DNA of 60,811 nucleotides, taken from contig JAFVCK010000072.1 in the NCBI GenBank assembly GCA_017479265.1, positions 1 through 60,811 on the forward strand, given 5' to 3'. How positions within the stretch are numbered: the stretch's first letter is position 1; every line of letters begins with the position of its first letter. The stretch comes from Bacteroidales bacterium. GTDB taxonomy: Bacteria; Bacteroidota; Bacteroidia; Bacteroidales; UBA932. Made by a program: the position numbers and the translations under genes. This document shows, in pieces, positions 29,252 through 49,717 of the stretch. The notes beneath the pieces are model-generated. The model ran no database searches, had not been told where the DNA came from, and saw only the letters and a list, made by a program, of their open reading frames with translations.

Positions 29252-29281
29252 CAGATGGTTATGAATCAGATGGTTATGAAA
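29252..29281 (+). repeat. Tandem 15-bp duplication around the start codon
   Basis: CAGATGGTTATGAA is present twice in a row (29252-29266 and 29267-29281; the last base of each unit differs). Each copy brings two ATG codons in the lipoprotein frame, so four candidate starts (29255, 29261, 29270, 29276) lie within 24 bp. The last, 29276, begins the normal-looking signal peptide. Confidence 0.85.
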
Positions 29282-33622: not shown

Positions 33623-34489
33623 TTACTTCTTGAAGGTCTTCTTTGCAACCTCGAAGTTGACTTCGAAATCAAAGTCGCCGGCATAGTACTTGGTCTCGTG
33701 GATGATACCGCCGGTAGCCTCGTCGAATTCATACTCGTAGGTAGCCTTGGAATCCCTGTCCTGCCACTTGGCCTCGGTGCAGACCTTGGCTGAGCTCCTG
33801 CCGAACAGACCTGTCTCATAGAACAGACGGCTCAGGCCGGCATCCTCGGAATAGGAGGTGTGGAGGTCTGCAACGTTGTCGGTGCTGTTGTACTTGTGCT
33901 CTTTGAAACGGTTTCCGTCGCGGCTCCATGTGAAGATGTTGCCGTTCTGTATTGCATATTCTGTCTTGGCTGCTCCGTCCTTGCTTGCCTTTGTCTGATA
34001 GCCGTCGGCATCATATTCGTAGGTCCATACAACTGCGGGATCCTCCGTATTGTTGGTCATCTTGGTGCAGAGGAACTTGTCATTGAGCTCGAGGCGGTAC
34101 TTGACAATCTCGTCGTCGTCCTCGGTAATCACATCGCAACCCTTGAAGTCATCATCGTAGTCGAAGATGTAGCTGTTGGTCTTGTCCGTGTTCTTGAGCT
34201 TGAGGACGCGGCCATACTCGTCATATTCGAACTCCCACCTGGTCTCACCAATCTTGACGGCTTTCCAGTCGTTCTCCTCGGGCCAGTCGCAGACTGCCTC
34301 AATATAAGCGGTCTTTACAACCTTCTCGATTGTAGCGGGTTCTGCAGAGGGCTCGTCAGAAGGCTTTGCAGGCTCCTCTGAAGGATTTGTTGAAGGGTCG
34401 TCGGAAGGCTTGATGACATCCTGGTTGTTCTTGTTGCAGCCTGTCATGAGAATTGCGGCAGCTGCGAGGAAAGTTAATACTTTTTTCAT
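33623..34489 (-). CDS. Lipoprotein of unknown function, YD-like repeats
   Basis: A 288-residue lipoprotein: MKKVLTFLAAAAILMTGC with lipobox Cys18, then a Ser/Pro/Glu/Asp-rich spacer (about 27-52) like that of the upstream esterase. The rest is beta-rich with repeated FEYDEYGRVLKL, YEYDADGYQTKAS and YEYEFDEATGGI motifs resembling RHS/YD repeats. I do not recognise a named family. It lies 12 bp after the esterase and ends just before the bidirectional terminator, so it seems to be the last gene of the ribosyl-scavenging operon. It may be a surface binding protein; that is inference only. Confidence 0.78.
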   Translation of the reverse strand: MKKVLTFLAAAAILMTGCNKNNQDVIKPSDDPSTNPSEEPAKPSDEPSAEPATIEKVVKTAYIEAVCDWPEENDWKAVKIGETRWEFEYDEYGRVLKLKNTDKTNSYIFDYDDDFKGCDVITEDDDEIVKYRLELNDKFLCTKMTNNTEDPAVVWTYEYDADGYQTKASKDGAAKTEYAIQNGNIFTWSRDGNRFKEHKYNSTDNVADLHTSYSEDAGLSRLFYETGLFGRSSAKVCTEAKWQDRDSKATYEYEFDEATGGIIHETKYYAGDFDFEVNFEVAKKTFKK

Positions 34490-34501
34490 GATGTTTGTTG
34501 A

Positions 34502-36043
34502 TTAAAAAGTGAATAATGATTTGTTTGTTTCTATACATCTGAGGGCATCTTCGGCAAAGTTGCCGGTGCCCTTTATAACTCTGTATTCGAAGGCTGCTCC
34601 GCTGCGCTTGCAAGATTTATACAGCGCTCCGCTGCCAAGGTAGAACGGTCCGTTGTCAGTGTTGAGTATCAGGTACTTCTGGCCCTTTTCGGTGGCAACG
34701 TCTTCTCCAAGGTCGGGGGCTATAAAGTACATTTTGTCAAAGCTCCCGCTCATGGCCATAATCTCCCCGGCCGCTGCCGTCAGACCAAAGGCCTGTGCTT
34801 TGCCTCCTTCATAGACGGACGAGTAGAAGGCAACCCAGTCCTGCAGGCTCTTTTCTTTAAGGTCGCAGGGAAGCAGGGCGCAATCCTTCGCCGAGGCGGC
34901 CCTGCTGAGCTCTGCAATCAAGGCGCTGCCGTCGGCATCCTTGAATGCCACATAGACAATGGTCCCGTCCTTTGAGAAACTTTCGGACACGTAAGCTCCA
35001 TTGGAATCGAATTCAACCTCAGGCACCTGAGGCGCAGTGATGTCCCTTCCGGGCCACTCCTGTCCGCCGTCCATATAGTATGCGAACATGGGCAGGACCT
35101 CAGTCAGGGCAGTCATCCAGTATGTGGACGTATGTCCGCCGTTGCCCACCCTGTATTCGTGCTTGAAAGCGCGGTCGCGCATGACTACGTGGAGGGAATC
35201 TCCGGCTATGAGGAGCTGCTCTTCGTCATCTCCGCAGGTGAAATACCATTTGACGGTCTCGAGGGACTCCCTGTTTGCATCGTTGAACACATAGTAGGGA
35301 CAGTGCTGCTTGTAATAGTCCGTCAGCCTGCCTTCTCCCTTCTCGTCCTTGCCTCCGAACAGGCTGCCCCACTGGCTTCTCCACCCTGAACCTTCAGTCA
35401 TATATTGCCGGTCGGTCCTGAAAGACATGGAAAGCGGGGCGCTGCACAGGAACAGTTCCGGATGCTTGGCCGCCAGTACATAGGCTCCGAAACCTCCCAT
35501 GGAATAACCGGTTATGCTGCGGTGCCCTTTGTCGGCCAAAGTGCGGAAAGATGCGTCAATGTGCGGTATGAATTCCTCTGCGAACATGTCCATGTAATTG
35601 AATGAACCATCGTATTTGTTGACATAATAACCCTGGTATCCGTAGGGGAAGACATATATCATTTCCCTCATGCCGCCGCCCTCCAGGGCTTTGATCCTGT
35701 CGGCTGCATGGAGCCAGTCCCCGTTCCAGGAGTTGTTGTCGTCTCCATAGCCGTGCAGCATATATACTACGGGATATCTTTCCGTGGAGTTCTGCTCGTA
35801 GCCCTCGGGAAGGTAAACAGAATACTTGAGGTCCGTATCCAGTATGTCGCTGTGAAACACCAAGTCCTTGTTGTATCTGGTGAACTTGGCAGGCTCCTGC
35901 GAAGGCTCCTGCGATGCTTCTGCGGGCTCCTCGGAAACATCCTTGGGGTCGGAAGATGACTCTGTGACGGAGGGCTTCCCGCAGCCGCAGGAGGCTATGA
36001 GCATGAATGCCGTCAGGGGCAATATGAACTTGGCTTTTCTCAT
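34502..36043 (-). CDS. Lipoprotein esterase of the CE1/esterase-D type
   Basis: A 513-residue secreted alpha/beta hydrolase. The signal sequence ends LIASC (Cys19), followed by a PSEEP-like spacer (about 30-52). The hydrolase domain (about 60-345) has YPVVYMLHGYGDDNNSW (oxyanion region) and nucleophile Ser181 in GYSMGGFGAY; the probable catalytic His is in NGGHTSTYW. A further 165-residue C-terminal region is unrecognised. ATG 36043 overlaps the upstream ADP-ribosylglycohydrolase stop by 4 bp. In this context it may remove acyl esters, or ester-linked ADP-ribose, from the substrate; that is inference. Confidence 0.85.
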   Translation of the reverse strand: MRKAKFILPLTAFMLIASCGCGKPSVTESSSDPKDVSEEPAEASQEPSQEPAKFTRYNKDLVFHSDILDTDLKYSVYLPEGYEQNSTERYPVVYMLHGYGDDNNSWNGDWLHAADRIKALEGGGMREMIYVFPYGYQGYYVNKYDGSFNYMDMFAEEFIPHIDASFRTLADKGHRSITGYSMGGFGAYVLAAKHPELFLCSAPLSMSFRTDRQYMTEGSGWRSQWGSLFGGKDEKGEGRLTDYYKQHCPYYVFNDANRESLETVKWYFTCGDDEEQLLIAGDSLHVVMRDRAFKHEYRVGNGGHTSTYWMTALTEVLPMFAYYMDGGQEWPGRDITAPQVPEVEFDSNGAYVSESFSKDGTIVYVAFKDADGSALIAELSRAASAKDCALLPCDLKEKSLQDWVAFYSSVYEGGKAQAFGLTAAAGEIMAMSGSFDKMYFIAPDLGEDVATEKGQKYLILNTDNGPFYLGSGALYKSCKRSGAAFEYRVIKGTGNFAEDALRCIETNKSLFTF

Positions 36044-37548
36044 TTTGCATCATAAACAACCATCTCGGAGCAGTATATGTGATAGTCGGGATGGGGGTTT
36101 TCCAACTTGAGCGTCAAGGTATGCTTTCCGCTGCCGAACTCATAGCCGGAGAATACTTCGTATTTACGTTTGATATAATCTATGGGCATTTTGAATGTCT
36201 CGACTTCCTTGCCATCGACAGAAGCGGTGACAGTGGCAACGTAGCTGTCATCCGCATGACCGCTCATGCGTACGAAGCCTTGGACAACGACTCCGCATCC
36301 GTCGAATGTGAGATCAACCTTATCTGTGAAAGCTTTTTTCAGCACTCTTTTCTCAACAGGAAGCAGCCCCTCGAAACTCTGCTCATAGCGCACTGTCCGG
36401 GGTTCCTGTATTGTAAAGATGCATTTTTCGTCCTTATTGCTGCACAAAGCTTTGTAGATTAATTCATAATTCGCTTCGCATACCTGGTCCAGGCTGAGGC
36501 TCGTGTATGGGAAAGGAATGTCCTTTATCCTCTCCGCACCCTTCTTCCACTCCTGTGGAATGGCATCATATCCGTACATCACGCCCAGAATTCCGGCAGC
36601 CGAAGCCGGGTTGCAGTCCGAGTCGTTGCCGCAGCGGGTAGCAATGTCCATGGTACGGGCGAAATCGCCGTTTCCGTAAAGCAGGCCAATGACTACAAAG
36701 GCCGAATTGATAGTTGCATCTATGTCAAAGCCGTTCCACACGCCTTCAGGGCAGCCTATGTCGTTGCTATGGCGGTTGGTCACTTCGAACCAGCACTGCT
36801 GCCAGTTGTCGGGGTAGAGCTTGTGGTACTTTATGACATCGGCGATGGTGCTGTGGAACTTGGTCCCTTCGGGGATGGTCCTCAGAGCCTGGTCAACGAG
36901 CAGCGGAATATCTGTGCAGACATAAGCGAGGCTGTAGAGTGCGCTTATGAAAACGCCTCCGTACCATCCGTCACCGTAGTTCATTATATGTCCTATCCTG
37001 TCGCACACCTCCACGGCATCGTTGACCCTGCCGGGGTAGAGCATTCCGATGAAGTCTGCTTCTATCTGGAAATCAATGTCATCCGCATGAGGGTTGTATT
37101 TCCAGTAGCCGGATTCGGGGGCTCCGCGGCCGTTGAGGATATTGTAACGTGCCGCCTGGTTTGCATGCCAGAGCTTGTAGTCCGCATTTGCGAAAGCGTC
37201 GGCATACAGCTCCACGGGTGCGTCCAGACCGTTTTTCATCATTATTTCGAGGAAGGTCAGGTCCATGTACACGTCATCATAGAGGCCGGGGTCTTCGATG
37301 AAGGTGTCATAGATATAGTCGTCATACCAGGGAATCGGTATTTCTTCGGGAATCAGTCCGCCTTTGTACTTGAACTCGGTGGGGCCGCCGTATGTGCAGC
37401 CTATGGTTTGTCCGTACCAGCCGCCGCGTATCTTGTCCATCAGCACCTGGGGTGTAAGTTCAACGGTGGTGCCATATGGAATCGTGGCTGTCCTGGTGCA
37501 GGACAATGCGGTAAGCAGCACAGCGGCTGCGATCATGGTCTTTCTCAT
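36040..37548 (-). CDS. ADP-ribosylglycohydrolase-family lipoprotein (paralog C)
   Basis: A 502-residue lipoprotein: MRKTMIAAAVLLTALSC gives Cys17. The ADP-ribosylglycohydrolase (ARH/DraG) fold spans about 33-390: MDKIRGGWYGQTIGCTYGGP, DDVYMDLTF (91-99) and GNDSDCNPASAAG carry the likely metal ligands. Canonical members have DDDT at the first site; here it is DLT, so one Asp is replaced. About 110 C-terminal residues form a beta domain. ATG 37548 sits 2 bp after the next upstream gene; longer in-frame starts lack a signal peptide. Closest to paralog B beside it. The exact substrate is unknown; bond type is inferred from family. Confidence 0.87.
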   Translation of the reverse strand: MRKTMIAAAVLLTALSCTRTATIPYGTTVELTPQVLMDKIRGGWYGQTIGCTYGGPTEFKYKGGLIPEEIPIPWYDDYIYDTFIEDPGLYDDVYMDLTFLEIMMKNGLDAPVELYADAFANADYKLWHANQAARYNILNGRGAPESGYWKYNPHADDIDFQIEADFIGMLYPGRVNDAVEVCDRIGHIMNYGDGWYGGVFISALYSLAYVCTDIPLLVDQALRTIPEGTKFHSTIADVIKYHKLYPDNWQQCWFEVTNRHSNDIGCPEGVWNGFDIDATINSAFVVIGLLYGNGDFARTMDIATRCGNDSDCNPASAAGILGVMYGYDAIPQEWKKGAERIKDIPFPYTSLSLDQVCEANYELIYKALCSNKDEKCIFTIQEPRTVRYEQSFEGLLPVEKRVLKKAFTDKVDLTFDGCGVVVQGFVRMSGHADDSYVATVTASVDGKEVETFKMPIDYIKRKYEVFSGYEFGSGKHTLTLKLENPHPDYHIYCSEMVVYDAK

Positions 37549-37550
37549 GC

Positions 37551-39161
37551 TCAGTTGTGATAATGGCTGTCTGTATTGCAAATGCTGCTGTAATACTGTA
37601 TTGCGTTGATTCTCAGCAGATAGGTCTTGGGGTCCGGATTGCGCCATACCATCTTTACATGGTGTCTGCCTTCCGGCAGCAGATACTTCCATGCAGGCTC
37701 AAGCTTGCGGGAAGTGCCCTTCATGGGCAGTACCGACACCTGGTCCAGAACACCGTCTATCCAGACTTCAATCTCCGCGACATAGTCGTCGTTTTCCTCG
37801 GCGAGGGCGAATACTTCGCTTCCGACGTGCTTCTTGGAGACCCTGGAAGCGTAATCGGCGCTTATTCCGCGCAGGCATACCAAGTTGCCCCATATCACAA
37901 AGCCGTTTCCGCTGAAGTCGAACTCATATTCCTTGTCCATCCATTCGTCCTTCTGGTCGCGGTACAGAGGCCATGTATCGGTGAAATTCTGCTCCAGAGG
38001 CAGCACGTCCGGCTTTGACACGGGAATGCTCACTTCATTTTCCGAGACCTTGCCGCCGTTCTTTTCAATCAGTTCAAGGGCGTGGCGGAAAGAATACTCC
38101 GAACCCTTGGCGAGGGATACGTCCGTGCCCTCGAAGTCCAGGTCCCAGATTTCCATGACGGGATTTTTCCAGAATTCCGGAATGCCTTTGAGACCGAGCA
38201 CAGCTCCAAGCACGCCTCCCACCGTAGCGGGATTGCAGTCGGAATCCTGTCCGCAGCGTGTGGCTATTTCGAGAGACTTCCCGAAGTCGCCGCCGCCGTA
38301 CAGCAGGCCCATGGCTACGTATGCGGAATTGATTTTTGCATCGATGTCGAAACTAAGGTACACTCCCTTCGGGCAGCCGAAATCATTGCCCCACTTTTTC
38401 AGTATCTCGAACCAGCTCTGCTTCCAGTCGCCGGGGTAACGCTTATGCAGCACGCGCACGTCGTTGACGCATTGCCAGAACGTGCTCTCCTGCGGAATGC
38501 CCTCGAGGGCCATGTCCAGTATCTTCGCCGGGTCGTTTTCCACGAAGGCCGCACTGTAAAGTCCTGATACGAAGGCTCCTCCGTAGAATCCGTCTCCGCT
38601 GTTCATTATGTGTCCTACCCTTGAGGCAATCTCCAGTGCCTGGTTCAGCATTCCGGGGGACATCATGCCGATGAAATCGGCTTCAATCTGGAAATCCAGG
38701 TCATCTGCGTGAGGGTTGTTGAGCCACAATCCGGATTCTGGAGGCATTATTCCATGCCTTATGTTGTAGCGGCCGGCCTGGTTGGCATGGGCAAGGTGAT
38801 AGGGGGCGTATGCAAAGCGCATCGCCAGGGAATCGCTGCTCACGTCCAGCCCCATCTGCTCGAAAGCTTCGGCAAATGTAAGGTCATTGTATATGTCGTC
38901 GAACAAGCCGGGCTTGCGGTCCCACCAATGTTTGACATAGCCTTCACCCCAGGATATGGGCTGCTGGTCGGGAATGAGCGTGCCGCAGTATTTGAATTCG
39001 GTCGGTGCGCCATATACTACTCCTATGGTCTGGCCGGCCCATCCGCCCATTATCTTGTCCATCAGCACATCCTTCGAAAGGGTGACTTCCGAAGGGAGGG
39101 CCTTTGGCGACGAGCAGGATGCAAGCCCTATCAGCAGGATTATCAACTTACTGTGCTTCAT
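37551..39161 (-). CDS. ADP-ribosylglycohydrolase-family lipoprotein (paralog B)
   Basis: A 536-residue lipoprotein with lipobox LASC (Cys16). Its ARH-type domain has MDKIMGGWAGQTIGVVYGAP, DDIYNDLTF (88-96), NPHADDLDFQIEADFIGM and GQDSDCNPATVGG with Asp306 and Asp308. It shares these variant motifs with paralog C, so the two form a subgroup distinct from paralog A. A C-terminal extension with RHHVKMVWRNPDPKTY resembles a carbohydrate-binding beta-sandwich. ATG 39161 overlaps the end of paralog A by 14 bp. It is probably outer-membrane anchored and acts on imported or surface-bound ribosylated material. Confidence 0.87.
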   Translation of the reverse strand: MKHSKLIILLIGLASCSSPKALPSEVTLSKDVLMDKIMGGWAGQTIGVVYGAPTEFKYCGTLIPDQQPISWGEGYVKHWWDRKPGLFDDIYNDLTFAEAFEQMGLDVSSDSLAMRFAYAPYHLAHANQAGRYNIRHGIMPPESGLWLNNPHADDLDFQIEADFIGMMSPGMLNQALEIASRVGHIMNSGDGFYGGAFVSGLYSAAFVENDPAKILDMALEGIPQESTFWQCVNDVRVLHKRYPGDWKQSWFEILKKWGNDFGCPKGVYLSFDIDAKINSAYVAMGLLYGGGDFGKSLEIATRCGQDSDCNPATVGGVLGAVLGLKGIPEFWKNPVMEIWDLDFEGTDVSLAKGSEYSFRHALELIEKNGGKVSENEVSIPVSKPDVLPLEQNFTDTWPLYRDQKDEWMDKEYEFDFSGNGFVIWGNLVCLRGISADYASRVSKKHVGSEVFALAEENDDYVAEIEVWIDGVLDQVSVLPMKGTSRKLEPAWKYLLPEGRHHVKMVWRNPDPKTYLLRINAIQYYSSICNTDSHYHN

Positions 39162-41112
39162 AGAATTGCAGTTCTGTGATGGAAATGAAAGATGTAACGT
39201 TCTTGGTGTATTTGTTCCAATGTACTTCCACTTTGTCATTGCCTGTTATGCGCATGGCCGTGGTGGTTACGGGCTCGAAGCGGAACAGGAACTCTCCGTT
39301 GTGCGGCTGGATGAAAACGGCATCGCTCTCGGGAAGGGCCGGGCTGATGGATGCCTCTATGGGCTGCCACGCTCCAGCCTCATCCATATACTCCAGATGC
39401 ATGTCGCTGTACCATCCGCCGAATTCTTCGAGAGTTCCGTAGTGGAATGCCGCCATGTTGACGGTGACGCTCTTGTCCCATCTGTATCCGAAATAATCCT
39501 GCTTGGGAGCGTTGCTCTTTTCCGAGAGGGAATAGAACGATGCTCCGGGACCTTCAAGTATGCCGTCGTTGATTACCTCTACGCCCTTTGCCCTGTAGGA
39601 CTTTCCGATTGTAGTCCAGCAGGAATCCAGGGTGGCATTGTCAGTCGTGCGGGAAAGAGCCAGTATTTCGGCCGCCTCGGGAGCGAGGTTGCGACCCCTG
39701 ACGATAAGGTTGAAATCCTTGATGATTGTGGTCTTCCCGTCGCTGAGGCTGAGGGTTATGGCAAAGTCGCCGACCTGGTCGGTTGTGCCGTGAAGGCGGC
39801 TTCCTTCCAGTTTCAATCCTTCAGGGAGACTGCCTCCGGTGAGGCTCCAGCGGTAATCCCTGTTCGTTACGCAGGCGAAGTCATAATCAACCGCCTCTCC
39901 CCGGATAATTCTTGGCTGGGGACCGATGCAGAACTCCAGAGGTGCATGGAAAACGGCCTTGGTGTTTATCCTGTAGTATTTTTCGCCATTTTCCTCGCGT
40001 ACTGATCCGCCACGGGCGATTATGATTTTTTCGGCCAGGTCCACGGTCCTTTCAATGAGGTCTTCTATGGAAGCGTCCGGCATGTCATAGCGCGTGACGT
40101 TTATGTACCTGTCGTTGAAAGGCTTGGTCCAATGCTCGAAAGGCATGCTTCTTTCCAGAGGAACGGAACCTACTCCGTTGATTACTCCGAGCAGGCCGCA
40201 GATTGTCGCGGTCTGGTTGTCGCAGTCGAATCCCAGGGCGCAGCCTATGTTGAGGGTCTTCTCTATGTCACCTTCGCCGTAAAGCAGTGACAGTATGCCC
40301 ATTGCTCCGTTGAGGTCAGCATTCCAGATAGCCTTGGTGGCATCCGGCTCGTTGAAATACAATTCTTCGGCTATGACCTTTCTCGCAGGCTTCCAATCCC
40401 GGGGATTCTGCCTGTGGAGTTCAATGCATTCGTCGATTATGCCGCGGAACCTGTCATTCTTCGGAAGGTATTCCTTTGCATGACATATCAGGGTGGGGAT
40501 GTCCTTCTCGAAGAATGCCTCGGAATACATGACGCCGTAAACTACGGTAGGGGACGTGGCCCAGTCGTCGGAGGTTATGCGTGCCGCCCAGTCGGAAATT
40601 CCGGCTGAATAAGCAGGCATGCCGGGAGCGGTGTAGGCCCATATCTCGTTAATGAGTTGAGGGTCAATCTGGAACCAATGGGGATTGTAGCGTTTGTCTC
40701 CTGTGAAAGGAGGGGTCAGGCCGTGATGCATCAGACCGAGGGCGGCGCGGTTGGCAAGCCATACCCTGTCCCGGATATGGTACATCCAGCCTTCCTTGAC
40801 CTGGGCGTAGGTAGGGTCTATGCCGTATTTCTCCATCATCAGCAGATAGAGGTATTCGACATCGGTATCGTCATCCGAGAAGGCTCCGTCCACCTCCGTC
40901 ATCTTGCGCAGGGCCTTGTTCCATACGAAGGGGCCTTCTCCGGGCTCGTCCACGAACTTGTTCTCATACTCCAGTCCGTAGATATTGCCCACCATCTGGC
41001 CTATCCAGGCACCGGCAATCTTGTCTTTAAGTTGCGTACGGCTTATCTCCTTGTACTTGCCGCTGCAAGAGACGGCCAGCAGGAGCACTGCCATATAAAG
41101 TATCCTTTTCAT
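39148..41112 (-). CDS. ADP-ribosylglycohydrolase-family lipoprotein (paralog A, canonical motif)
   Basis: A 654-residue lipoprotein, Cys16 in LLAVSC. The ARH-type domain retains the canonical first metal motif SDDDTDVEY (Asp80-82, Thr83) and GFDCDNQTATICG (Asp296, Asp298), with GAWIGQMVGNIYGLEYE at the N-terminus. After about 390 come an Ig-like segment (YRWSLTGGSLPEGLKLEG, typical of putative-Ig domains) and a C-terminal discoidin/F5-8-like module (ASFYSLSEKS to ITELQFYEAQ). The start overlaps the SusD stop (TAATG). It is the most likely true ADP-ribose hydrolase of the three. Confidence 0.88.
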   Translation of the reverse strand: MKRILYMAVLLLAVSCSGKYKEISRTQLKDKIAGAWIGQMVGNIYGLEYENKFVDEPGEGPFVWNKALRKMTEVDGAFSDDDTDVEYLYLLMMEKYGIDPTYAQVKEGWMYHIRDRVWLANRAALGLMHHGLTPPFTGDKRYNPHWFQIDPQLINEIWAYTAPGMPAYSAGISDWAARITSDDWATSPTVVYGVMYSEAFFEKDIPTLICHAKEYLPKNDRFRGIIDECIELHRQNPRDWKPARKVIAEELYFNEPDATKAIWNADLNGAMGILSLLYGEGDIEKTLNIGCALGFDCDNQTATICGLLGVINGVGSVPLERSMPFEHWTKPFNDRYINVTRYDMPDASIEDLIERTVDLAEKIIIARGGSVREENGEKYYRINTKAVFHAPLEFCIGPQPRIIRGEAVDYDFACVTNRDYRWSLTGGSLPEGLKLEGSRLHGTTDQVGDFAITLSLSDGKTTIIKDFNLIVRGRNLAPEAAEILALSRTTDNATLDSCWTTIGKSYRAKGVEVINDGILEGPGASFYSLSEKSNAPKQDYFGYRWDKSVTVNMAAFHYGTLEEFGGWYSDMHLEYMDEAGAWQPIEASISPALPESDAVFIQPHNGEFLFRFEPVTTTAMRITGNDKVEVHWNKYTKNVTSFISITELQFYEAQ

Positions 41113-42692
41113 TACTCTTTGTCGTTAGGGCTGGAATAACCTGGATTCTGCTTGAGGTTGGGGTTGGCTCCACGCATCTCCTCGGGGATGGGCAGCAGGA
41201 GTTCTCGCTCCTCTCCGGCCTCTTTGCACCACCATTTGTCCAGATATTTTCCAAATCGTATGAGGTCCTGCCTTACCCAGCCTTCAAGGCACAGTTCGTG
41301 CTGGCGCTCGATAAGGAAATTGTCAAGCGTAAGGTCCGCTGCCGTCATGGGTGAAAGGCCTGCACGGGAGCGTATCTGCTGGAATTCGGGCACTGCCGCG
41401 GCTTCTCCTTCCTTGCCCTGGCGGATGAGGCATTCCACGTACATCAGGACCACGTCCGAGTAGCGCATGGTTATGAAGTCGTTCTCCATGCTGACGCTGT
41501 ATCCTGTCTGGCTGCCGTCGGTCTGGTATTCCCATTTGATAATCCTGGCTCCGTCCTTTCTGGCAAGACCCTTGGTGTACTTGTCTTCAGCAATGTCGAT
41601 ATCCTCGAGTATGTAGTCCTGATAAACGGGCTCTCCCTTGCGGTTCACTCCAACCGCTATTCTCCAAGGATTGCCGCTCAGGTCATATACCTGGCCGAAC
41701 AGCCATGTGTCACTCTTGCGCTTGTCGGCGGGGTCGTAGGTGGCCATGAAATCCGGCTGTCCTATGAAAGAACCGTTCCATGTGCCGCTGACGTTCCATA
41801 TCTTTTCGCAGTCGGCGTTGAGAGTGAAGCACCATACATAGAACGCATTGCGGTCAGAAGTCGTAATTCCGGTGCTGTACGGAATGGCGAAAATGGCCTC
41901 GGTCGAGTTCTCGTTATGCACGGCGAAATTCTCCTTGTATGTGTTTGTAAGCTTGAAGTGTCCGCTTTCCATTATGCTCTTGCACTCCTGAGCCGCCTCA
42001 GCCCACATTTCCTGACCGGTCCACACCTTGGCGTTGAGATACATCTTGGCAAGGAGGAAGTGGGCCATGTCGCGTGTTGCCCTGCCGTAGGTGGCGGCAG
42101 AAGGCGTTTCGGGCAACATGTCTATGTTGTCTTTCAGCTCTTTCACTATGAAATCGAACATGAAAGCCCTGTCCTTGACCTCGGGATATCCTGTCTGCGA
42201 CTTGTCAACCGAATAGGGAACGTTGCCCCAGCAGTCAATCGCCATCATGTAGCAATATGCCCTCAAGGTCTTCATCTCCGCTATGATGGACTTTTTCGCA
42301 TCGTTCATCTCTCCGGAATGCTCGACCTCGTAAATGACATCGTTGCAGCCTGCAATGGTATTGAAGCAGAATTCCCATGCGGTGCGGATCAGCTTGTTGT
42401 TGGTCTGCATGCGGTGGGTCTGGAGCTCACGGTAGCGAGGCTCCGTCCAACTTCCGTTGTAGGAACGGGGCACGGCCATTTCGTTGCCGAGCTGCAGGAC
42501 CATGGTCCACATGCTCTGTTCCACGGCCCAGTTCTGAAGCAGGGTGTACGGGCGGGCGCTGTATATCTTCAACTGGCTCTCGTTGCTGAAGAATTCCTCC
42601 TTTGGCAACTGGGAGAAAATGGTCTCGTCAAGATTGGTGCAGGCGGGCATTGCCAGCATCGTCATCACGATAAGTATCAGTATCTTTTTCAT
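41112..42692 (-). CDS. SusD/RagB-family surface lipoprotein
   Basis: A 526-residue SusD-like lipoprotein forming the lid of the SusC channel. The signal sequence ends MLAMPAC (Cys18), followed by TNLDETIFSQLPKEEFF, typical of the family. An alpha-helical TPR core shows FNTIAGCNDVIYEVE, AEMKTLRAYCYMMAIDCWGN and ARDMAHFLLAKMYLNA-like positions. The C-terminus has FLIERQHELCLEGWVRQDLI, the usual RagB ending. It lies 12 bp after susC. The ligand is probably a ribosylated glycan or nucleotide derivative, judged from neighbours only. Confidence 0.95.
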   Translation of the reverse strand: MKKILILIVMTMLAMPACTNLDETIFSQLPKEEFFSNESQLKIYSARPYTLLQNWAVEQSMWTMVLQLGNEMAVPRSYNGSWTEPRYRELQTHRMQTNNKLIRTAWEFCFNTIAGCNDVIYEVEHSGEMNDAKKSIIAEMKTLRAYCYMMAIDCWGNVPYSVDKSQTGYPEVKDRAFMFDFIVKELKDNIDMLPETPSAATYGRATRDMAHFLLAKMYLNAKVWTGQEMWAEAAQECKSIMESGHFKLTNTYKENFAVHNENSTEAIFAIPYSTGITTSDRNAFYVWCFTLNADCEKIWNVSGTWNGSFIGQPDFMATYDPADKRKSDTWLFGQVYDLSGNPWRIAVGVNRKGEPVYQDYILEDIDIAEDKYTKGLARKDGARIIKWEYQTDGSQTGYSVSMENDFITMRYSDVVLMYVECLIRQGKEGEAAAVPEFQQIRSRAGLSPMTAADLTLDNFLIERQHELCLEGWVRQDLIRFGKYLDKWWCKEAGEERELLLPIPEEMRGANPNLKQNPGYSSPNDKE

Positions 42693-42704
42693 AAGTATGC
42701 CATA

Positions 42705-45602
42705 TTAGAAGGTCAAAGATGCTCCAAGAGTGAATACCCTTGTGCGGGGATAATAGGTAAGAGGTGCGATACCGGGTGCCAGACCGCCGAGAGAAACTTC
42801 CGGGTCCACTCCCGTGTATCCTGTAAGTATGAACACGTTCTGCGCCGTAGCATAGAAGCGAAGTCCCTTGAGGTACTTGTTGTTCATGGGAACGTCATAC
42901 GAGAATGAGATATTGTCCAGCTTGAGGTAGGTGGCATCCTCCAGATACTTGGAAGAATACACTACGCTGCCCGTAAAGGTCTGGTCGTTGAGCCATGTGT
43001 TCTGTATGTTCTGCATTCCTAGGTTGGTCAGGTTCTCATAGACACCCCTCATCTGGTTGAGGACCTTGCCGCCTATGGAAGCACGGAGGGTTGCGCTGAG
43101 GCTGAACCTTCCGTAGCGCAGGCTGTTGCTAAATCCGAGGTCCACTGCGGGGAACGCACTGCCCAGAGGGACCCATTCGTTCTCGTCCTCGGTTGAAATT
43201 ACGGCATTGCCGGTTTCGTCAACTCCTTGATAGACAGGGCCGTAGAAACTACCAAGGCTCTTGCCCTCGGTGAGGCGCTGCGTATAGGCTCCAAGGGGAG
43301 TGTTGACCCATCCTATGCGGTAGTCCTGGTCCTTGAATTCCTCGTTGGTGAACTTGACGAGCTTGTTCTCATTGTGAGACAGGATGAACGTCGCATCCCA
43401 CTCGAACTTCTCCGTCTTGACGGGTATTGCGTTGATAGTCACCTCTATACCGCTGTTGCTGATGGAACCGACATTGGTGAACAAGGTCTTGTAGTCGTAT
43501 GGAGGCACAGGCACTGCATAATGATACAGCAGGTCTGTCGTGAGGCGGTAATAATAATCTATGGTACCGCTCAGACGGCCGTTCAGTACCGACCAGTCTA
43601 TACCGACATTGAACTCTGATTTCTTCTCCCAGCCGAGGTCGGGGTTGGCATTGTTGGCAGGTACATAGGTGTTGTACCATTTGCCTCCCGAGTAATATTT
43701 TCCGCTGGTAGCCATGAGCAGCAGTGACTGGTAGTTGCTGAAATCCTGGTTGCCGGTAACACCGTATCCGGCCCTTAGCTTGAGTTCGTCCAGCCATTTC
43801 ACATTCTTCATGAACGGCTCCTGGGAGATGCGCCAGCCGAGGCTTACGGCAGGGAACCATCCCCATTTGTGGTTCTTTCCGAAGCGGGAGGAACCGTCAC
43901 GCCGCAGGGATACCGACGCAAGGTAACGGTCTGCATAATTGTACATTACGCGGCCGAAGAATGCAATGTAACGGCTCCTGCTGCGCTCGGAGTCCATTTC
44001 TGCCATGCCATCCTGCAGGGCGTATCCGGAGCCTATGTTGTCCGTTCCGAAGAGGTCGGTGTCGAAGCTGTAGTTGTCCATGAACGAGGAGCGGTCGTTC
44101 CTCTCCTGCCAAGTGTAGCCCAGAATGGCCTGCAAGCCATGGTCTCCGAAACTGTTGGAATACTGCAAGGTGCTCTCGAACTGGAGGTTGCTGCCTGATG
44201 AATTGCTTATCTCGGCTGTTCCCATCCTTCCGGTTTCGCCCGGATAGAAGCGGGTCTTGTAGTCACGGCTTTCGTAGCGCTCGCTGTTGTAGCTGATGAA
44301 GTTGTCCCACTTCAAACCCTTGACAGGCTTTATGTTGAGGGTTGCACGTCCGTTCACGCCCATAATGTCTATGTCGGTCTCTCCCGTTCGCTCGTTCAGC
44401 ATGGCTACAGGGTTGTAGTAGTCCATTGCAGAAATGGTGAAATATCCTCCGTTGTCCGTGTCGTTCTCATCATAGACAGGCTCGGTGGGGTTGTGGAAGA
44501 AGGCCTGGCGGAAAAGTCCCTGGCGGGTTCCGTTATATTTGCGTTTGCCGTAGGAGAGGTTGTAGTCGAATGTCAGCCAGCCCTCTATGGCCTCCTGATG
44601 GATATTGGTCTTGAAGAGGTATTTGTTGGCATCGTTCCTTTTCAGCATTCCCTGGTTCTGCTCGATGTTGATGACAGTACGGTGGGAGAACTTCTGGCTG
44701 CCGCCTGCTATTGCAAGGCTGTGGCGGTGGCTGACAGGAGTGCGGGTAATCTCCTTGAACCAGTCGGTTTCGGCTCCGTACAGGTAGGCTTCGGGACCGC
44801 TTACGTGTACTTCCACTGCATCGCGGAACTGGCTGGGAGTCAGCGGAACTGCCCTTGACAGCACGGTCTGGACGGATACTTGTCCGTCATATTCCACTGT
44901 GGTGCGTCCGGTCTTTGCTCTCTTTGTGGTAATGATGATGACACCGTTGGTGCCCCTCGTACCGTAGATGGCGGCAGCGGAACCGTCCTTGAGCACGTCC
45001 ATGGATTCCACTTCCTGGAAGTTGATGCTGTTAAGGTCGGCATCTACCACTCCGTCTATGATGATGAGAGGTCCCTGACCTGCGCTGAGGGTGTTGGTGC
45101 CTCGGAGCAGGATTTCGAAAGAACCGTTAGGGTCGGCTCCGTTGGGATTGGTTATGGTCAGGCCGGCCACCTTGCCCTGCAACATTCCTGCAGGGGAGAG
45201 GAAGGCTCCCTTGTCGAAGTCTTCGCTGCGAAGGCTGGTCACTGAACCTGTCACTTCCTTCTTGGTCGTAGTACCGTAACCGATTGCCACGGCCTCGTTC
45301 AGCATGGTAGCTGCGGAAGGAGTCATGTTGACCGGGTATGACGTGGCATCGCCTACGGTGAATACGAAATCATCGTAGCCGAGGAAAGAGACGGTGACTG
45401 TGTCGCCCTTCTTGGCATTCAGGGAATAGTTGCCCCTTTCGTCGGTGAGGGCGTAAGTGCCTCCTCCGCTCACAAGGGATGCTCCCACGAGGGGCTCTCC
45501 CTTTTCATCGGCCACCTTGCCGGTGATTCGTCCCTGGGCGAAGGCCACGAGGCCGACGCACAGGAGGACTATGCTTGCCGATAGTTTGAACAAATGTTTC
45601 AT
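42705..45602 (-). CDS. SusC/RagA-family TonB-dependent outer-membrane transporter
   Basis: A 965-residue TonB-dependent channel. Signal peptide MKHLFKLSASIVLLCVGLVA, then a carboxypeptidase-regulatory-like domain (GRITGKVADEKGEPLVGASL, about 24-95). The plug follows, with SusC signatures AVAIGYGTTTKKEVTGSV, MLQGKVAGLTITNPNG and SAAAIYGTRGTNGVIIITT. The barrel ends YPRTRVFTLGASLTF with terminal Phe. ATG 45602 gives the signal peptide; the same frame stays open upstream through the antisense of the permease gene, which is not real coding. It pairs with the downstream SusD. Confidence 0.96.
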   Translation of the reverse strand: MKHLFKLSASIVLLCVGLVAFAQGRITGKVADEKGEPLVGASLVSGGGTYALTDERGNYSLNAKKGDTVTVSFLGYDDFVFTVGDATSYPVNMTPSAATMLNEAVAIGYGTTTKKEVTGSVTSLRSEDFDKGAFLSPAGMLQGKVAGLTITNPNGADPNGSFEILLRGTNTLSAGQGPLIIIDGVVDADLNSINFQEVESMDVLKDGSAAAIYGTRGTNGVIIITTKRAKTGRTTVEYDGQVSVQTVLSRAVPLTPSQFRDAVEVHVSGPEAYLYGAETDWFKEITRTPVSHRHSLAIAGGSQKFSHRTVINIEQNQGMLKRNDANKYLFKTNIHQEAIEGWLTFDYNLSYGKRKYNGTRQGLFRQAFFHNPTEPVYDENDTDNGGYFTISAMDYYNPVAMLNERTGETDIDIMGVNGRATLNIKPVKGLKWDNFISYNSERYESRDYKTRFYPGETGRMGTAEISNSSGSNLQFESTLQYSNSFGDHGLQAILGYTWQERNDRSSFMDNYSFDTDLFGTDNIGSGYALQDGMAEMDSERSRSRYIAFFGRVMYNYADRYLASVSLRRDGSSRFGKNHKWGWFPAVSLGWRISQEPFMKNVKWLDELKLRAGYGVTGNQDFSNYQSLLLMATSGKYYSGGKWYNTYVPANNANPDLGWEKKSEFNVGIDWSVLNGRLSGTIDYYYRLTTDLLYHYAVPVPPYDYKTLFTNVGSISNSGIEVTINAIPVKTEKFEWDATFILSHNENKLVKFTNEEFKDQDYRIGWVNTPLGAYTQRLTEGKSLGSFYGPVYQGVDETGNAVISTEDENEWVPLGSAFPAVDLGFSNSLRYGRFSLSATLRASIGGKVLNQMRGVYENLTNLGMQNIQNTWLNDQTFTGSVVYSSKYLEDATYLKLDNISFSYDVPMNNKYLKGLRFYATAQNVFILTGYTGVDPEVSLGGLAPGIAPLTYYPRTRVFTLGASLTF

Positions 45603-45613
45603 ATTCTTGAAGC

Positions 45614-46630
45614 TCAATTGTTTCCTGCCACTACTATGCAGGCGAGGCCTGCTATGAAGAGAGCGAACATTACGCCCAGGAGACCATATACCTTCTTGTC
45701 GGAGCCCTTGAATTCTTTCCATACGAAAACGCCCCAAATAGCCGCTATCATAGGAGCTCCCTGGCCGAGGGCATAGGATACGGCGGCACCTGCCTTCCCG
45801 GAGGCAATGTAGCTGAATGCCGTTCCAAGGCACCAGATTGCACCTCCGAGCATACCCACGAGATGGGTCTTGGCACTGCCCTTGAAATACTGCGAATATG
45901 TAACGGGCTCGCCGACGAAAGGCTTGCGCATTACAAGGGTGTTGAAGCAGAAGTTGCTGAGCAGCACGCCGATGGAGAAGATGAATATTGCCGTGTAGGG
46001 AGTGACTTTGCCGGCTGCGGGATTTGCGAAATTCTCGCCGTCCATTCCCTTCTGTACAAGGAAGAAGAAAAGGGACATCAGAACGCCTGCGCACACTGCC
46101 AGCAGGATGCCCTTCTTTGAAGAGGAGTTGTCCTCGTTGGAGGAGCCGGCCTTCTTGCCGGAGGCTATGCCGTTGCAGATTATTGCCACTACCACCAGGG
46201 CCACTCCGAGGAACAGCAGGGTAGGGTCACCCTTGGAAACGCCTCCGAAATAGTTGAAGAACACGCCCAGTACCAGAGCCAGGCCTACTCCCAGAGGGAA
46301 TGCTACAGACATTCCGGCGAGAGCCGTCGAAGCGGAAAGCAGTATGTTCGAAGCGTTGAATATGATACCGCCCAGGGCCACCCATCCGAGGCTTGCGAGG
46401 CTCGCTTGTGAAAGGTCTTGGAGGAAAGGACGGCCTTCGCTGCCTATGCTGCCCATCGTGAAGCAGAGCAGAAGGGCGAAAAGGACCATTCCTATCACAT
46501 AGTCCCAGTAAAAAAGCTCATATCTCCAACTCTTTGCTGCAAGTTTCTGTGTATTTCCCCAGGAACCCCAGCAGAGCATTGTAACCAGGCAGAATACGAC
46601 TGCGAGTGTGTAACTGTGAACGATGAACAT
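45614..46630 (-). CDS. GRP-family sugar permease (probable ribose uptake)
   Basis: A 338-residue inner-membrane protein with about ten helices, of the DMT-superfamily GRP/RhaT type. The N-terminus MLCWGSWGNTQKLAAKSWRYE is characteristic. A central Lys/Ser/Asp linker (about 152-166) splits two five-helix halves; the second contains GGAIWCLGTAFSYIASGKAG. It lies between ribokinase and susC in the same operon, so it should move the ribose-containing product, most likely ribose, across the inner membrane. Homologous permeases occur in rus ribose-scavenging loci of Bacteroides, as I recall. Substrate is inferred. Confidence 0.87.
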   Translation of the reverse strand: MFIVHSYTLAVVFCLVTMLCWGSWGNTQKLAAKSWRYELFYWDYVIGMVLFALLLCFTMGSIGSEGRPFLQDLSQASLASLGWVALGGIIFNASNILLSASTALAGMSVAFPLGVGLALVLGVFFNYFGGVSKGDPTLLFLGVALVVVAIICNGIASGKKAGSSNEDNSSSKKGILLAVCAGVLMSLFFFLVQKGMDGENFANPAAGKVTPYTAIFIFSIGVLLSNFCFNTLVMRKPFVGEPVTYSQYFKGSAKTHLVGMLGGAIWCLGTAFSYIASGKAGAAVSYALGQGAPMIAAIWGVFVWKEFKGSDKKVYGLLGVMFALFIAGLACIVVAGNN

Positions 46631-46642
46631 GATTATCTGATT

Positions 46643-47548
46643 TTATTGGTTTTCAATTTCTTTTCTGTATGGTATCGAAGCCTGTGCTCCCATTCTCTGT
46701 ACCGTAAGGGCCGATGCCTTGGTGGCGAAAACGGCGGCTTCCTCAAGCGTGCGGCCCTCGGAAAGGGCTACGCACAGGGCTCCGCAATAAGTGTCTCCTG
46801 CGGCGGTGGTATCTATTGCCTTCACCTTACAGGCCTCAACGGTCTTGCAGCCGTCGCCTGTGACTATGAGCGAACCTTTGCTGCCCATGGTGACTATTAT
46901 GTCTTTCACTCCCTTGGCTTTCATGGCACCGGCAGCCTTTGCGGCGCTGTCTGCGTCCTCTACCTTGATGCCGCTGAACCTTGACAGTTCGGTCTCGTTG
47001 GGAATGAACAGGGTAATATGCCTGAACAACTCTTCAGGAAGGTCGCATGCCGGTGCAGGATTGAGCACGACGGTTGCGCCGGCCGCGTGTGCAATCTCGG
47101 CGGCTTTCATTACGGCGGGGACGGGAGTTTCCAATTGCAGGAGCACTATTTCGGCACCTTCCAGGGCATCCCTGATGGACTCGATGTCTTCGGGCCTTAC
47201 ATCGGAATTGGCCCCCGATGCTACCACGATGCAGTTCTCCGCATTGCTGTCAACCGAAATGAGGGCTACGCCGGAGGGTTTGTCAGAACGCTTGGCAAGG
47301 CTGATGTCCATACCTTCCTGCTCGTAGCTTTTCAGTGCATTGTCTCCGAAAATGTCCTTTCCGACTTTGCAGAAGAAAGAAACGTCACCGCCCAGCCTTT
47401 GTGCCGCAACGGCCTGGTTTGCACCTTTTCCGCCACCTCCCATGGTGAATTCTCCGCCAAGTACGGTCTCGCCCGGGACGGGCAGTTTTGCTGTTTTTAC
47501 AGTCATGTCGGTATTGCTGCTTCCGACAACCAATATCTTATGTATCAT
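46643..47548 (-). CDS. rbsK: Ribokinase (PfkB family)
   Basis: A 301-residue kinase that phosphorylates D-ribose to ribose-5-phosphate. Motifs: VVGSSNTDMTVKTAKLPVPG and GGGGKGANQAVAAQRLGGDV (PfkB signature 1, strongly ribokinase-like), NPAPACDLP, NETELSRFSG, and signature 2 DTTAAGDTYCGAL with the catalytic Asp. First gene of the minus-strand operon, 12 bp before the permease and divergent from the LacI gene. It indicates that the pathway's sugar is ribose or a close pentose. Confidence 0.94.
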   Translation of the reverse strand: MIHKILVVGSSNTDMTVKTAKLPVPGETVLGGEFTMGGGGKGANQAVAAQRLGGDVSFFCKVGKDIFGDNALKSYEQEGMDISLAKRSDKPSGVALISVDSNAENCIVVASGANSDVRPEDIESIRDALEGAEIVLLQLETPVPAVMKAAEIAHAAGATVVLNPAPACDLPEELFRHITLFIPNETELSRFSGIKVEDADSAAKAAGAMKAKGVKDIIVTMGSKGSLIVTGDGCKTVEACKVKAIDTTAAGDTYCGALCVALSEGRTLEEAAVFATKASALTVQRMGAQASIPYRKEIENQ

Positions 47549-47625
47549 AGCGAAACTGTTTTTCTTCTTGCTAATTTACCCGACTTTTTCTTCGGGTGCT
47601 CGAGTTTTGACAAAAAATAACTATA

Positions 47626-47673
47626 AAAACGTTAAATTTTTTGCACAAATTATTAACTTTGTTGCGCAAACAA
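47626..47673 (+). promoter_or_regulatory. Promoter region and possible LacI-type operators
   Basis: TAACTTTG (47654-47661) is a good -7 box for the LacI gene, with an imperfect TTA 19 nt upstream. Two CG-centred inverted repeats flank it, as LacI-family operators do: AACGTT at 47628-47633, overlapping the -33 position, and TTGCGCAA at 47662-47669 within a wider imperfect palindrome, just after the -7 box. Binding there could shut off both divergent transcripts. A minus-strand promoter for rbsK is not clear. Confidence 0.5.
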
Positions 47674-47682
47674 TGATGCTCC

Positions 47683-48681
47683 ATGAAAACGGAAACACTA
47701 AGAAGCATTGCTCAAAGGACGGGTTATTCCATGACGACGGTGTCTCGCGTAATCAGCGGGAAATCCGATAGATATAGAATCAGCTCCGCTGCAAGGGAAA
47801 AAATAATGGTGGAAGTTAGACGATGCGGATATACTCCGCTTTCCGTTGCGCAACATTTGCGCAAAACCAAGACGGGGCTTATCGGCCTTTTGCTGCCTTC
47901 CGTGTCCAACCCCTTCTTCGCGGACATGGCTTCCGTGATTATCACCGAACTGCATAAAAGACACTATACTACTATCGTGATGGACACGATGGAGGATGAT
48001 GAGAACTTTCTTGACTGCCTCAAGTCCATGGTCGCCCGTCAGGTGGAGGGGATAATAGCGGTGCCTTGCGGCTCTGACGGGACCATGGTGGAGAAAGTCA
48101 ACGAGCATACGCCTGTGGTCCTCGTGGACCGCTTCTATGAAAACACCTCCCTGTCCTTCGTCACCACCAACAACTATCAGGGCAGCCTCGATGCAACCCG
48201 TTATCTGATAGATTCGGGGCACAGGAGGATAGCCTGCATACAAGGAGCTACATCCTCCATGCCTAACAAAGAGAGGGTGAAGGGGTATCTGGATGCAATG
48301 AAGGCGGAAGGCCTGTCCGAGCATATCTCGCTGTCCGGCAGTGAGTTCTCCATTCGTAACGGCTATCTGGAGACCAAGTTGCTTCTTTTCGGGGAAAATC
48401 CGCCGACAGCTATCTTCGCGCTCAGCAACACCATACTTCTGGGGGCCTTGAAGGCGATAAGGGAGTCGCGGCTCGACATCCCCGGGGACATCGCCCTCGT
48501 CACTTTCGACGACAATCTCTACATGGATTATATGACCCCTGTCATTTCCCGTATCAGCCAGCCTGTCGTTGACATGGCTTCCCTTGCATCCAAGCTGCTT
48601 CTGGATGCACTCGAATCACCTTCCGCCGGTGTCACGCAGCTTCGCCTTTCTCCTTCCCTTATCAAAGGGGAATCCGTCTAG
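47683..48681 (+). CDS. LacI-family transcriptional regulator
   Basis: A 332-residue regulator. The N-terminal helix-turn-helix and hinge (TLRSIAQRTGYSMTTVSRVI, then YTPLSVAQHLRKTKTGLIGL) precede a periplasmic-binding-protein-like effector domain with SVSNPFFADM, VVLVDRFYEN, DSGHRRIACIQG and ALVTFDDN. Divergently placed from the ribokinase-led operon across 134 bp. Expected to repress it until a ribose-type inducer binds. It converges on the next gene with a single base between stops, so there is no room for a terminator. Confidence 0.93.
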   Translation: MKTETLRSIAQRTGYSMTTVSRVISGKSDRYRISSAAREKIMVEVRRCGYTPLSVAQHLRKTKTGLIGLLLPSVSNPFFADMASVIITELHKRHYTTIVMDTMEDDENFLDCLKSMVARQVEGIIAVPCGSDGTMVEKVNEHTPVVLVDRFYENTSLSFVTTNNYQGSLDATRYLIDSGHRRIACIQGATSSMPNKERVKGYLDAMKAEGLSEHISLSGSEFSIRNGYLETKLLLFGENPPTAIFALSNTILLGALKAIRESRLDIPGDIALVTFDDNLYMDYMTPVISRISQPVVDMASLASKLLLDALESPSAGVTQLRLSPSLIKGESV

Positions 48682-48682
48682 C

Positions 48683-49717
48683 CTACCACTGGCTGATTTC
48701 GCCGTAGATGGGGCAGCTGACCTTTACGTTCACCGGCTGTCCTTTCACCAGCTGCGGGGCCCACAAGTCCAGATGTGAAATATTGTCCAAGATAACCTTG
48801 TCAAGGCCGGGGAGGTTGGAGGGGCGCACGATCTGCACATTCTTCACGGTGCCCAGTGGAGTAATCTCGAACTGCACCACAGCGCGGCCTTTGCCGGGGC
48901 GGGCTTCCTTTCCTTTAAGGTCGGTGATGGAACTGTATGCGTTGAATGTGTCGGAGAAATTCTTGATATCTTTACCGTTGTAGATGGCCTGTACGCCTTC
49001 CTGGCCGGACGTGACTGTCCTGAATTCATATTCCTCCAGACCGGAGTCCATGACGCGGAACCAGCGCTCCGGAGACAGAGGGGTTTCCTCGGTGTGGTAC
49101 ACCACGTTGATGTAGGGGACATCGGAGAGATTCAGGTCGTGGTCCAGATTGTACAGCTCACCTATTGTCGTCTGGTAAGATAGGTCAAACACGACGCAAT
49201 CGAAGTTGTTGGTCCATTCCGTCACGGCGTTTGCTTTGTCGTGGGGCGTGCGCAGGTACATCTTGATGCGGGTAATGTTGTAGGCATAGTCGTCCGGGGC
49301 CGCACCTCTCAGAAAGAAGTCCGAATGATTGTCGTTATCATTGAAGAAAGTGGCTGTCTTGGCCTTTTTCAGCAAGTCGAATTCTATGAAATTGCCGTGA
49401 TAGGCCATCTTGGGGCCGTATGAACGGGGAAAATCTTTGTTTCTCCTGGGGTTCAGGAACACCACGCCCGATGTGCAGCTGCCCTGGATTATGGATTGCA
49501 GGTCATTGACAAGACCTATGGGTGTATCAAAGGAGACATATACAAAAATGTCCTGAAAGTCGGTCTGGGCTTTCTCCAGAATGGTTCCAGCTTCGTGGAT
49601 GTCAATGGTCTTCCCCTCGAAGGTGATTTTTTCTCCGTCCACCCGGAAGGCGCAGACCTGGGCAAAGGCTGCCTGTGCAACGAGCACGGCGGCAATAATG
49701 CTGATAATCTTTTTCAT
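48683..49717 (-). CDS. Exported protein with TonB C-terminal-type domain
   Basis: A 344-residue protein with signal peptide MKKIISIIAAVLVAQAAFAQ. The first 240 residues are not recognised. The last 90 or so form a TonB-CTD-like domain (GRAVVQFEITPLGTVKNVQI, LDKVILDNISHLDLWAPQLV, VNVKVSCPIYG). There is no Pro-rich linker, and the cleavable-looking signal peptide ends in AFAQ, so it is probably free in the periplasm rather than an ExbBD-coupled TonB. Function is unknown; peptidoglycan binding or a scaffold role is possible. Confidence 0.75.
   Translation of the reverse strand: MKKIISIIAAVLVAQAAFAQVCAFRVDGEKITFEGKTIDIHEAGTILEKAQTDFQDIFVYVSFDTPIGLVNDLQSIIQGSCTSGVVFLNPRRNKDFPRSYGPKMAYHGNFIEFDLLKKAKTATFFNDNDNHSDFFLRGAAPDDYAYNITRIKMYLRTPHDKANAVTEWTNNFDCVVFDLSYQTTIGELYNLDHDLNLSDVPYINVVYHTEETPLSPERWFRVMDSGLEEYEFRTVTSGQEGVQAIYNGKDIKNFSDTFNAYSSITDLKGKEARPGKGRAVVQFEITPLGTVKNVQIVRPSNLPGLDKVILDNISHLDLWAPQLVKGQPVNVKVSCPIYGEISQW

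Follow-up and report, generated by a model that had tools for sequence, protein, structure and literature searches.

Which substrate is served by an operon that combines a ribokinase and a SusC/SusD pair with three different lipoproteins of the ADP-ribosylglycohydrolase family (PF03747)? This question is raised by a locus in a 60,811-nucleotide stretch of Bacteroidales DNA (the window), which constitutes contig 18 of a 2.04-Mb assembly that is 89% complete. Nine tightly packed genes occupy positions 47548 to 33623 of the minus strand, in the order ribokinase, GRP-type permease, SusC, SusD, the three PF03747 proteins (here designated RGH_A, RGH_B, and RGH_C, or A, B, and C), CE1-like esterase, and DUF4595 lipoprotein, with a lacI gene on the opposite strand. 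An initial annotation, made from the sequence, had described this operon with gaps of at most 12 bp or overlaps and had proposed that ribosylated material, possibly ADP-ribosylated, is cut at the cell surface and then imported. The operon itself was recovered in full: Pfam and NCBIfam searches found every named gene, and the gaps from the ribokinase to the DUF4595 gene were 12, 11, 12, -1, -14, 2, -4, and 12 bp. For these values, starts were set at the signal peptides, as the listed open reading frames of SusC, B, and C are too long at the 5' end, with likely starts at 45602, 39161, and 37548, respectively. The "small lipoprotein" at the end of the operon is present as well but is a DUF4595 protein of 288 amino acids rather than a small one. 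The three RGH proteins exceeded the PF03747 cut-off with 135.7, 126.5, and 91 bits and were the sole matches to this family in the assembly; each starts with a signal peptide that ends in a lipobox-like cysteine. We consider it fairly likely, with a probability of roughly 0.6, that the operon is a ribose-scavenging locus of the polysaccharide utilization type and a variant of the ribose-utilization (rus) loci of Bacteroidetes, in which SusC and SusD would mediate import, A, B, and C would release ribose in the periplasm, and the ribokinase would phosphorylate it.

To place the locus among its relatives, we used RGH_B in a scan that yielded 43 loci in named genomes (L004 to L046). The nearest ones belong to uncultured Bacteroidales, mostly from rumen or other forestomach samples according to the record titles. 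A, B, and C were all present in 37 of the 43 loci and the complete set of nine genes in 25, so the gene order that the initial annotation had suggested searching for is indeed found in related genomes. Among the 37 loci with A, B, and C, ribokinase was found in 32, the permease in 30, SusC in 34, and SusD in 35; the DUF4595 gene was poorly conserved across the related loci. Chance can be excluded as an explanation because the gene order is conserved in many genomes. Several of the incomplete loci sit on short contigs (e.g., L008 with 4.7 kb and L041 with 3.0 kb), and at least two of the named loci were met again among the unnamed ones (L043 = L120 and L045 = L204). L042 and L043 are real exceptions that contain only the esterase and one RGH gene. 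In these two loci, from sediment-type Bacteroides, the esterase directly precedes a single B/C-type RGH gene, which is the smallest such pair seen. In one assembly (G156), the whole operon is present twice, on separate contigs (L187 and L188), representing either a strain mixture or a true duplication. In four of the 43 loci (L031, L032, L033, and L034), a single frame of 1183 to 1200 amino acids (at about 8010 to 11611) encodes both A and B, and its B part lacks a signal peptide of its own; genome G118 holds a further frame of 1178 amino acids with two PF03747 matches. The fusion in the same order as the separate genes implies that A and B probably act together in one compartment.

The link to ribose was assessed by the neighborhood of ribokinase and RGH genes. 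The kinase of the window exceeds the cut-off of the curated ribokinase model TIGR02152 and is the only match to this model at an E value of ≤1e-40 in its assembly. The B/C profile revealed relatives in 50 of the 393 genomes drawn at the order level and in 13 of the 395 drawn at the phylum level, with the window's own genome and G302 occurring in both draws. In the resulting 61 genomes (both draws together with the window's own genome), a ribokinase above cut-off lay within 10 kb of 27 of the 65 B/C places, and, conversely, 27 of 45 ribokinases above cut-off, including that of the window, had a B/C-type hydrolase no more than 10 kb away. The rough chance expectation, by our own estimate, is 20 kb in about 4 Mb per gene. 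A match to the nucleoside hydrolase family PF01156 was located within 10 kb of 8 of the 65 places. An adjoining B-C pair was counted as one place; matches below cut-off were left out, as were places with RGH_A only (G747, G825, G908, G915, G332:C146, and G457:C132) and, with them, the ribokinase of G747 (one of 46 above cut-off) and its nucleoside hydrolases. In the family of the window (199 genomes), 21 of 38 ribokinases above cut-off had a PF03747 match within 10 kb.

Nucleoside hydrolases were a recurrent companion of these genes. Where a locus had a ribokinase or permease, they were the commonest kind among the scanned unassigned operon neighbors of single RGH genes (11 of 31); these 11 came from eight loci, with L150 contributing four. 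Five loci of a sister genus (L203 to L207) comprise a full A-B-C operon together with a nucleoside hydrolase homolog beside the ribokinase or lacI at the operon head, and a sixth (L210) has the homolog at the head of a fetched stretch that ends after A; one of the six, that of L203, was checked by Pfam and confirmed. Nine further loci of the family (L212 to L220), five of them from the genus of the window, display a similar ribokinase, permease, and nucleoside hydrolase without an RGH gene in the fetched stretch, and all but one of these have a LacI gene. Loci L203 to L222 were selected because a ribokinase or nucleoside hydrolase matched there and thus serve as examples, not as a sample. In L215, from the genus of the window, a GH106-type rhamnosidase gene (4654 to 7644) stands next to the ribokinase-permease-nucleoside hydrolase locus, and a frame of 997 amino acids occupies the matching place in L216.

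A ribokinase tree, which took in 14 chosen loci of L004 to L046, contained a supported set of 21 rows (SH-aLRT of 97, quick method) made up of 14 A-B-C loci, 5 nucleoside hydrolase loci, L190, and L222; the 11 rows labeled "NHonly" in this tree include L221 and L222, which show neither a nucleoside hydrolase nor an RGH gene. On an RGH tree of 89 rows, built without A proteins and without proteins of <350 or >1000 amino acids, the presence of a ribokinase or permease in the locus changed 14 times, compared to 29 changes expected by shuffling. The linkage is clustered on this tree, yet it recurs in distant branches. Ribose is therefore well supported as the theme of the locus, and the ribokinase, the permease, and the repeated occurrence of nucleoside hydrolases nearby support the ribose scavenging and the kinship with rus loci that had been proposed initially.

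Alternatively, A, B, and C might themselves be nucleosidases that replace the PF01156 enzymes where those are absent. The regulator-kinase-permease core is shared with nucleoside hydrolase loci in the same family, some of them in the window's own genus, and no PF01156 match was obtained in 8 of the 10 order-level genomes that have A-B-C. The absence of a nucleoside hydrolase, as first annotated, holds for the genome of the window, with no PF01156 match in the locus or in the assembly at its 89% completeness; it does not hold for the locus in general, since the sister genus has one at the operon head. Because the sister genus has A-B-C and a nucleoside hydrolase together in the same locus, the two are not simple substitutes for each other. 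A rule that genomes with A-B-C do without a nucleoside hydrolase was dropped for the same reason, as the sister genus carries both. In addition, nucleosides need no esterase, and their linkage is of the beta type. The characterized ARH enzymes, in contrast, are described as selecting alpha-1'' linkages (PMC7050489). Nucleosidase activity of A, B, and C thus appears unlikely.

The family assignment of A, B, and C suggests another reading, ADP-ribose scavenging, in which they free ADP-ribose from protein, poly-ADP-ribose, or NAD-derived material and the cell takes up and consumes the product. All three exceed the PF03747 cut-off, the aspartate pairs of the metal center are conserved, and a ribokinase is at hand. 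The metal center is retained in part, with the Asp pair and the DxD motif seen in nearly every A, B, and C protein. For comparison, ordinary PF03747 members were taken, namely E. coli YegU and 16 of the 18 YegU-matching frames from 21 loci (L047 to L067) of the window's bacterial family; the other two frames were set aside because of their length, and selecting members by their similarity to YegU may favor the loop of YegU. The G..MR core of a G(N/C)G..MR-type loop was present in all 17 of these ordinary members (a narrower loop pattern fits 6 of the 17). It was missing from 106 of 107 RGH lipoproteins in the order-, phylum-, and family-level loci L120 to L199 (19 of 20 A, all 30 B, and all 57 C proteins) and from all three RGH proteins of the window. 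The place of the loop is taken in A, B, and C by a different motif, NPH...(F/Y)QI(D/E). With L004 to L046 added, as for all motifs other than G..MR, exact FQI[ED] occurred in 41 of 57 A, 66 of 68 B, and 82 of 96 C proteins but in none of the 17 ordinary members.

For ARH3 and ARH1, an Asn and a Cys, respectively, have been placed near C4'' and C5'' of the bound ribose, with the following glycine in contact with the pyrophosphate (PMC6309922). These Asn/Cys-Gly residues would map onto the N/C-G of the loop, which by this mapping would be the ADP-ribose site. Nudix, pyrophosphatase, and nucleotidase families were absent among the ten locus proteins scanned by Pfam, and the two 5'-nucleotidase-family matches of the assembly are both on other contigs. 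ADP-ribose scavenging would also provide the permease with no free ribose. When profiles were aligned to the ordinary members, the B/C alignment extended no further than the C-terminal DxD motif (probability, 95.5), and the A profile aligned weakly (32.9). A PDB search with the B/C profile returned one sequence at an E value of ≤0.01, a weak partial match over 50 positions, and with the A profile there was no match at an E value of ≤0.1. The missing loop, together with the lack of a pyrophosphate-splitting family in the operon, speaks against ADP-ribose, poly-ADP-ribose, or NAD, which the initial annotation had listed among possible substrates. We regard this reading as improbable: judging from the motifs, the locus is probably not about ADP-ribose, and A, B, and C are probably plain ribose-releasing hydrolases.

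We then asked where the lipoproteins reside. Surface lipoproteins of this phylum are described as carrying an acidic signal right after the lipidated cysteine (PMC5080379). Considering proteins with a recognized lipobox, at least two acidic residues at positions +2 to +8 were found in 29 of 32 SusD proteins, which served as the positive control, as well as in 16 of 27 DUF4595 proteins and 10 of 30 esterases. The RGH proteins showed this feature in 1 of 36 (A), 3 of 35 (B), and 1 of 41 (C) cases. These mature N termini suggest that A, B, and C face the periplasm, while SusD and DUF4595, the putative binding protein, would be located at the surface, perhaps together with the esterase. Because A, B, and C lack an export-like acidic signal while SusD has one, import would come first and cutting after; the order assumed initially, cleavage at the surface followed by import, is probably wrong.

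In the model that we infer for location, transport direction, hydrolase activity, the signal of the regulator, and the identity of the riboside, SusD and SusC would capture and import an acylated or otherwise decorated riboside, from which the esterase would strip acyl groups on the outside. A, B, and C would be tethered at the periplasmic face and would hydrolyze ribofuranosyl bonds to free ribose, and the permease would move the ribose across the inner membrane. The ribokinase would then convert it to ribose-5-phosphate for the pentose phosphate pathway, and the RbsR-like LacI repressor would sense ribose or ribose-5-phosphate. The best NCBIfam match of the LacI protein is RbsR, with 208 bits and thus below the cut-off of 382. 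An imperfect palindrome in front of lacI, TTTGTTGCGCAAACAA, is a candidate operator; with as many as three mismatches allowed, it occurs once in the window, compared to an expectation of 0.26. Another palindrome, GCGCAATCGTTTGCGC, recurs in the lacI-rbsK gap of 11 of 20 related loci examined, some of these gaps being shortened by frame ends.

Several observations weigh against ribose release by A, B, and C or against ribose as the sole theme. B and C lack the Thr beside the metal-binding Asp pair: the TDD/SDD form was found in 55 of 57 A, 3 of 68 B, and 0 of 96 C proteins, with (F/Y)DD in B and C. Loss of one Mg ligand is reported to have abolished activity in two ARH enzymes (PMC6309922). With Thr/Ser lost in B and C, the metals may be held differently, or the chemistry may have changed. 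No ribokinase was found within 10 kb of 38 of the 65 B/C places, and 17 of the 38 ribokinases of the family had no nearby PF03747 match. Genes for GH94, GH3, GH31, GH92, GH47, alpha-galactosidase, and alpha-L-fucosidase adjoin RGH genes that lack a ribokinase (71 of 80 neighbor proteins scanned). These families are scattered, none occurring in more than 3 of the 71 proteins among the first 25 of 95 families; PF01156 may be among the rest. Sulfatases occur in a few loci with ribokinase and RGH (L130, L132, and L158), which are possibly sulfated glycan loci linked to ribose; L130 and L132 also hold alpha-L-rhamnosidase and acetyl xylan esterase genes. The RGH family may thus not be ribose specific, because of its glycoside hydrolase, sulfatase, and rhamnosidase neighbors. 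Furthermore, the A-B-C loci L208 and L209 showed no ribokinase in the fetched stretch (pheS takes its place in L208), and the permease was not found in the A-B-C loci L012, L015, L036, and L040, where the ribokinase runs straight into SusC. In the latter four loci, lacI has the same direction as the ribokinase.

Use of a glycan, with the enzymes taking ribofuranose or another furanose off an acylated plant or microbial polysaccharide, would fit SusC/SusD, the CE1-like esterase, and the glycoside hydrolase, sulfatase, rhamnosidase, and esterase genes beside RGH relatives, but it is just as improbable as ADP-ribose scavenging, as Pfam detected no other glycoside hydrolase family in the operon and the kinase and regulator favor ribose over other pentoses.

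The preferred reading, ribose scavenging with periplasmic release, rests partly on comparison with known systems. The rus locus of Bacteroides thetaiotaomicron presumably spans BT2803 to BT2809. Reportedly, many rus variants, some of them with ADP-ribosylglycohydrolases, were described by Glowacki in 2020, and a nucleoside hydrolase is not needed in every variant. At BT2804, the locus is described as comprising a ribokinase, a TonB receptor, SusD, DUF4969, a nucleoside hydrolase, and a permease (PMC10434189), and ribose-utilization systems are referred to as clusters of genes through which nucleotides and nucleosides are used (PMC11699363). The operon of the window likewise unites ribokinase, SusC, SusD, and a permease (DMT type in B. 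thetaiotaomicron) but has three PF03747 lipoproteins, an esterase, and DUF4595 where B. thetaiotaomicron has DUF4969 and the nucleoside hydrolase. By analogy, the locus would work like the rus loci, with which it belongs by its gene core. Related combinations are annotated elsewhere. In Staphylococcus, an ADP-ribosylglycohydrolase, a permease, and a ribokinase are annotated side by side; compared by annotation, that permease is of the purine/uracil type, and no SusC/SusD is named there (PMC3637587). The annotated E. coli genes yegT-yegU-yegV encode a transporter, an ADP-ribosylglycohydrolase-family protein, and a sugar kinase in a row. Unlike A, B, and C, YegU has TDDT, GGDTDT, and the G..MR loop, and its catalytic domain begins at the start of the protein without a lipoprotein-like leader. 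ARH1, ARH3, and DraG share PF03747 membership and the metal-binding Asp pairs with A, B, and C, whereas the G..MR loop is lost in A, B, and C and TDD is changed to (F/Y)DD in B and C. A literature search revealed no paper that we recognized as dealing with PF03747 lipoproteins in ribose loci among the matches listed. The conserved set of three paralogs and the loss of the ordinary ADP-ribosylglycohydrolase loop look new, unless they are already contained in the founding paper on rus.

The features of the locus are compiled in Table 1. The nearest PDB sequence to the esterase is ferulic acid esterase 7xrt (E value, 3e-37), and the DUF4595 lipoprotein is possibly a surface binding protein. An Rfam scan of the window returned no family at gathering score, and ARAGORN detected no tRNA in it. 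Two further genes lie right behind lacI on the minus strand, one for another PF00756 esterase (49828 to 50970) and one for a protein bearing a TonB C-terminal domain (48683 to 49717), both outside the conserved order of related loci. Past the 3' end of the operon lies a His_kinase sensor and LytTR response regulator pair (31672 to 33553, plus strand), preceded by a gene for 804 amino acids (29255 to 31669) with a Cthe_2159 carbohydrate-binding match.

Table 1. Genes and candidate regulatory site of the ribokinase-RGH locus, with coordinates in the window
Feature	Position	Strand	Basis or remarks
LacI-family regulator, RbsR-like, divergent from the operon	47683..48681	+	Pfam LacI, Peripla_BP_3; NCBIfam
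Candidate LacI operator, TTTGTTGCGCAAACAA	47658..47673	.	Imperfect palindrome, 9 bp before lacI start codon
Ribokinase RbsK	46643..47548	-	TIGR02152, 356 bits (cut-off, 299.65)
Inner-membrane sugar permease, GRP/RhaT/ureide-permease superfamily	45614..46630	-	PF07168, PF07857, PF06800, each above cut-off
SusC-type TonB-dependent outer-membrane transporter	42705..45602	-	TIGR04056, 711 bits
SusD-type lipoprotein, expected at the surface	41112..42692	-	PF07980, PF14322
RGH_A, ADP-ribosylglycohydrolase-family lipoprotein, 654 amino acids	39148..41112	-	PF03747; SDD and DxD metal motifs kept, no G..MR loop
RGH_B, ADP-ribosylglycohydrolase-family lipoprotein	37551..39161	-	PF03747; FDD replaces TDD, NPHADDLDFQIEADF motif, no G..MR loop
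RGH_C, ADP-ribosylglycohydrolase-family lipoprotein, paralog of B	36040..37548	-	PF03747; YDD replaces TDD, no G..MR loop
CE1-like esterase lipoprotein, Pro/Ser/Glu-rich linker	34502..36043	-	PF00756
DUF4595 lipoprotein, 288 amino acids, acidic linker	33623..34489	-	PF15283

Beyond this locus, the branch of RGH lipoproteins with NPH...(F/Y)QI(D/E) may represent unrecognized extracytoplasmic ribofuranosidases, a new glycoside hydrolase family that would give Bacteroidota access to a ribofuranose-bearing nutrient in the rumen and elsewhere; we propose this tentatively and at somewhat less than even odds. If it is true, the A-B-C set would be a multienzyme specialist form of this ribofuranosidase family. 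The name ADP-ribosylglycohydrolase, which is taken from the Pfam family, invites wrong guesses about ADP-ribose signaling, and the RGH enzyme set recurs in many Bacteroidota. Confirmation would establish a new class of ribosidases and would mean that ribose-bearing compounds merit a dedicated uptake system in the rumen.

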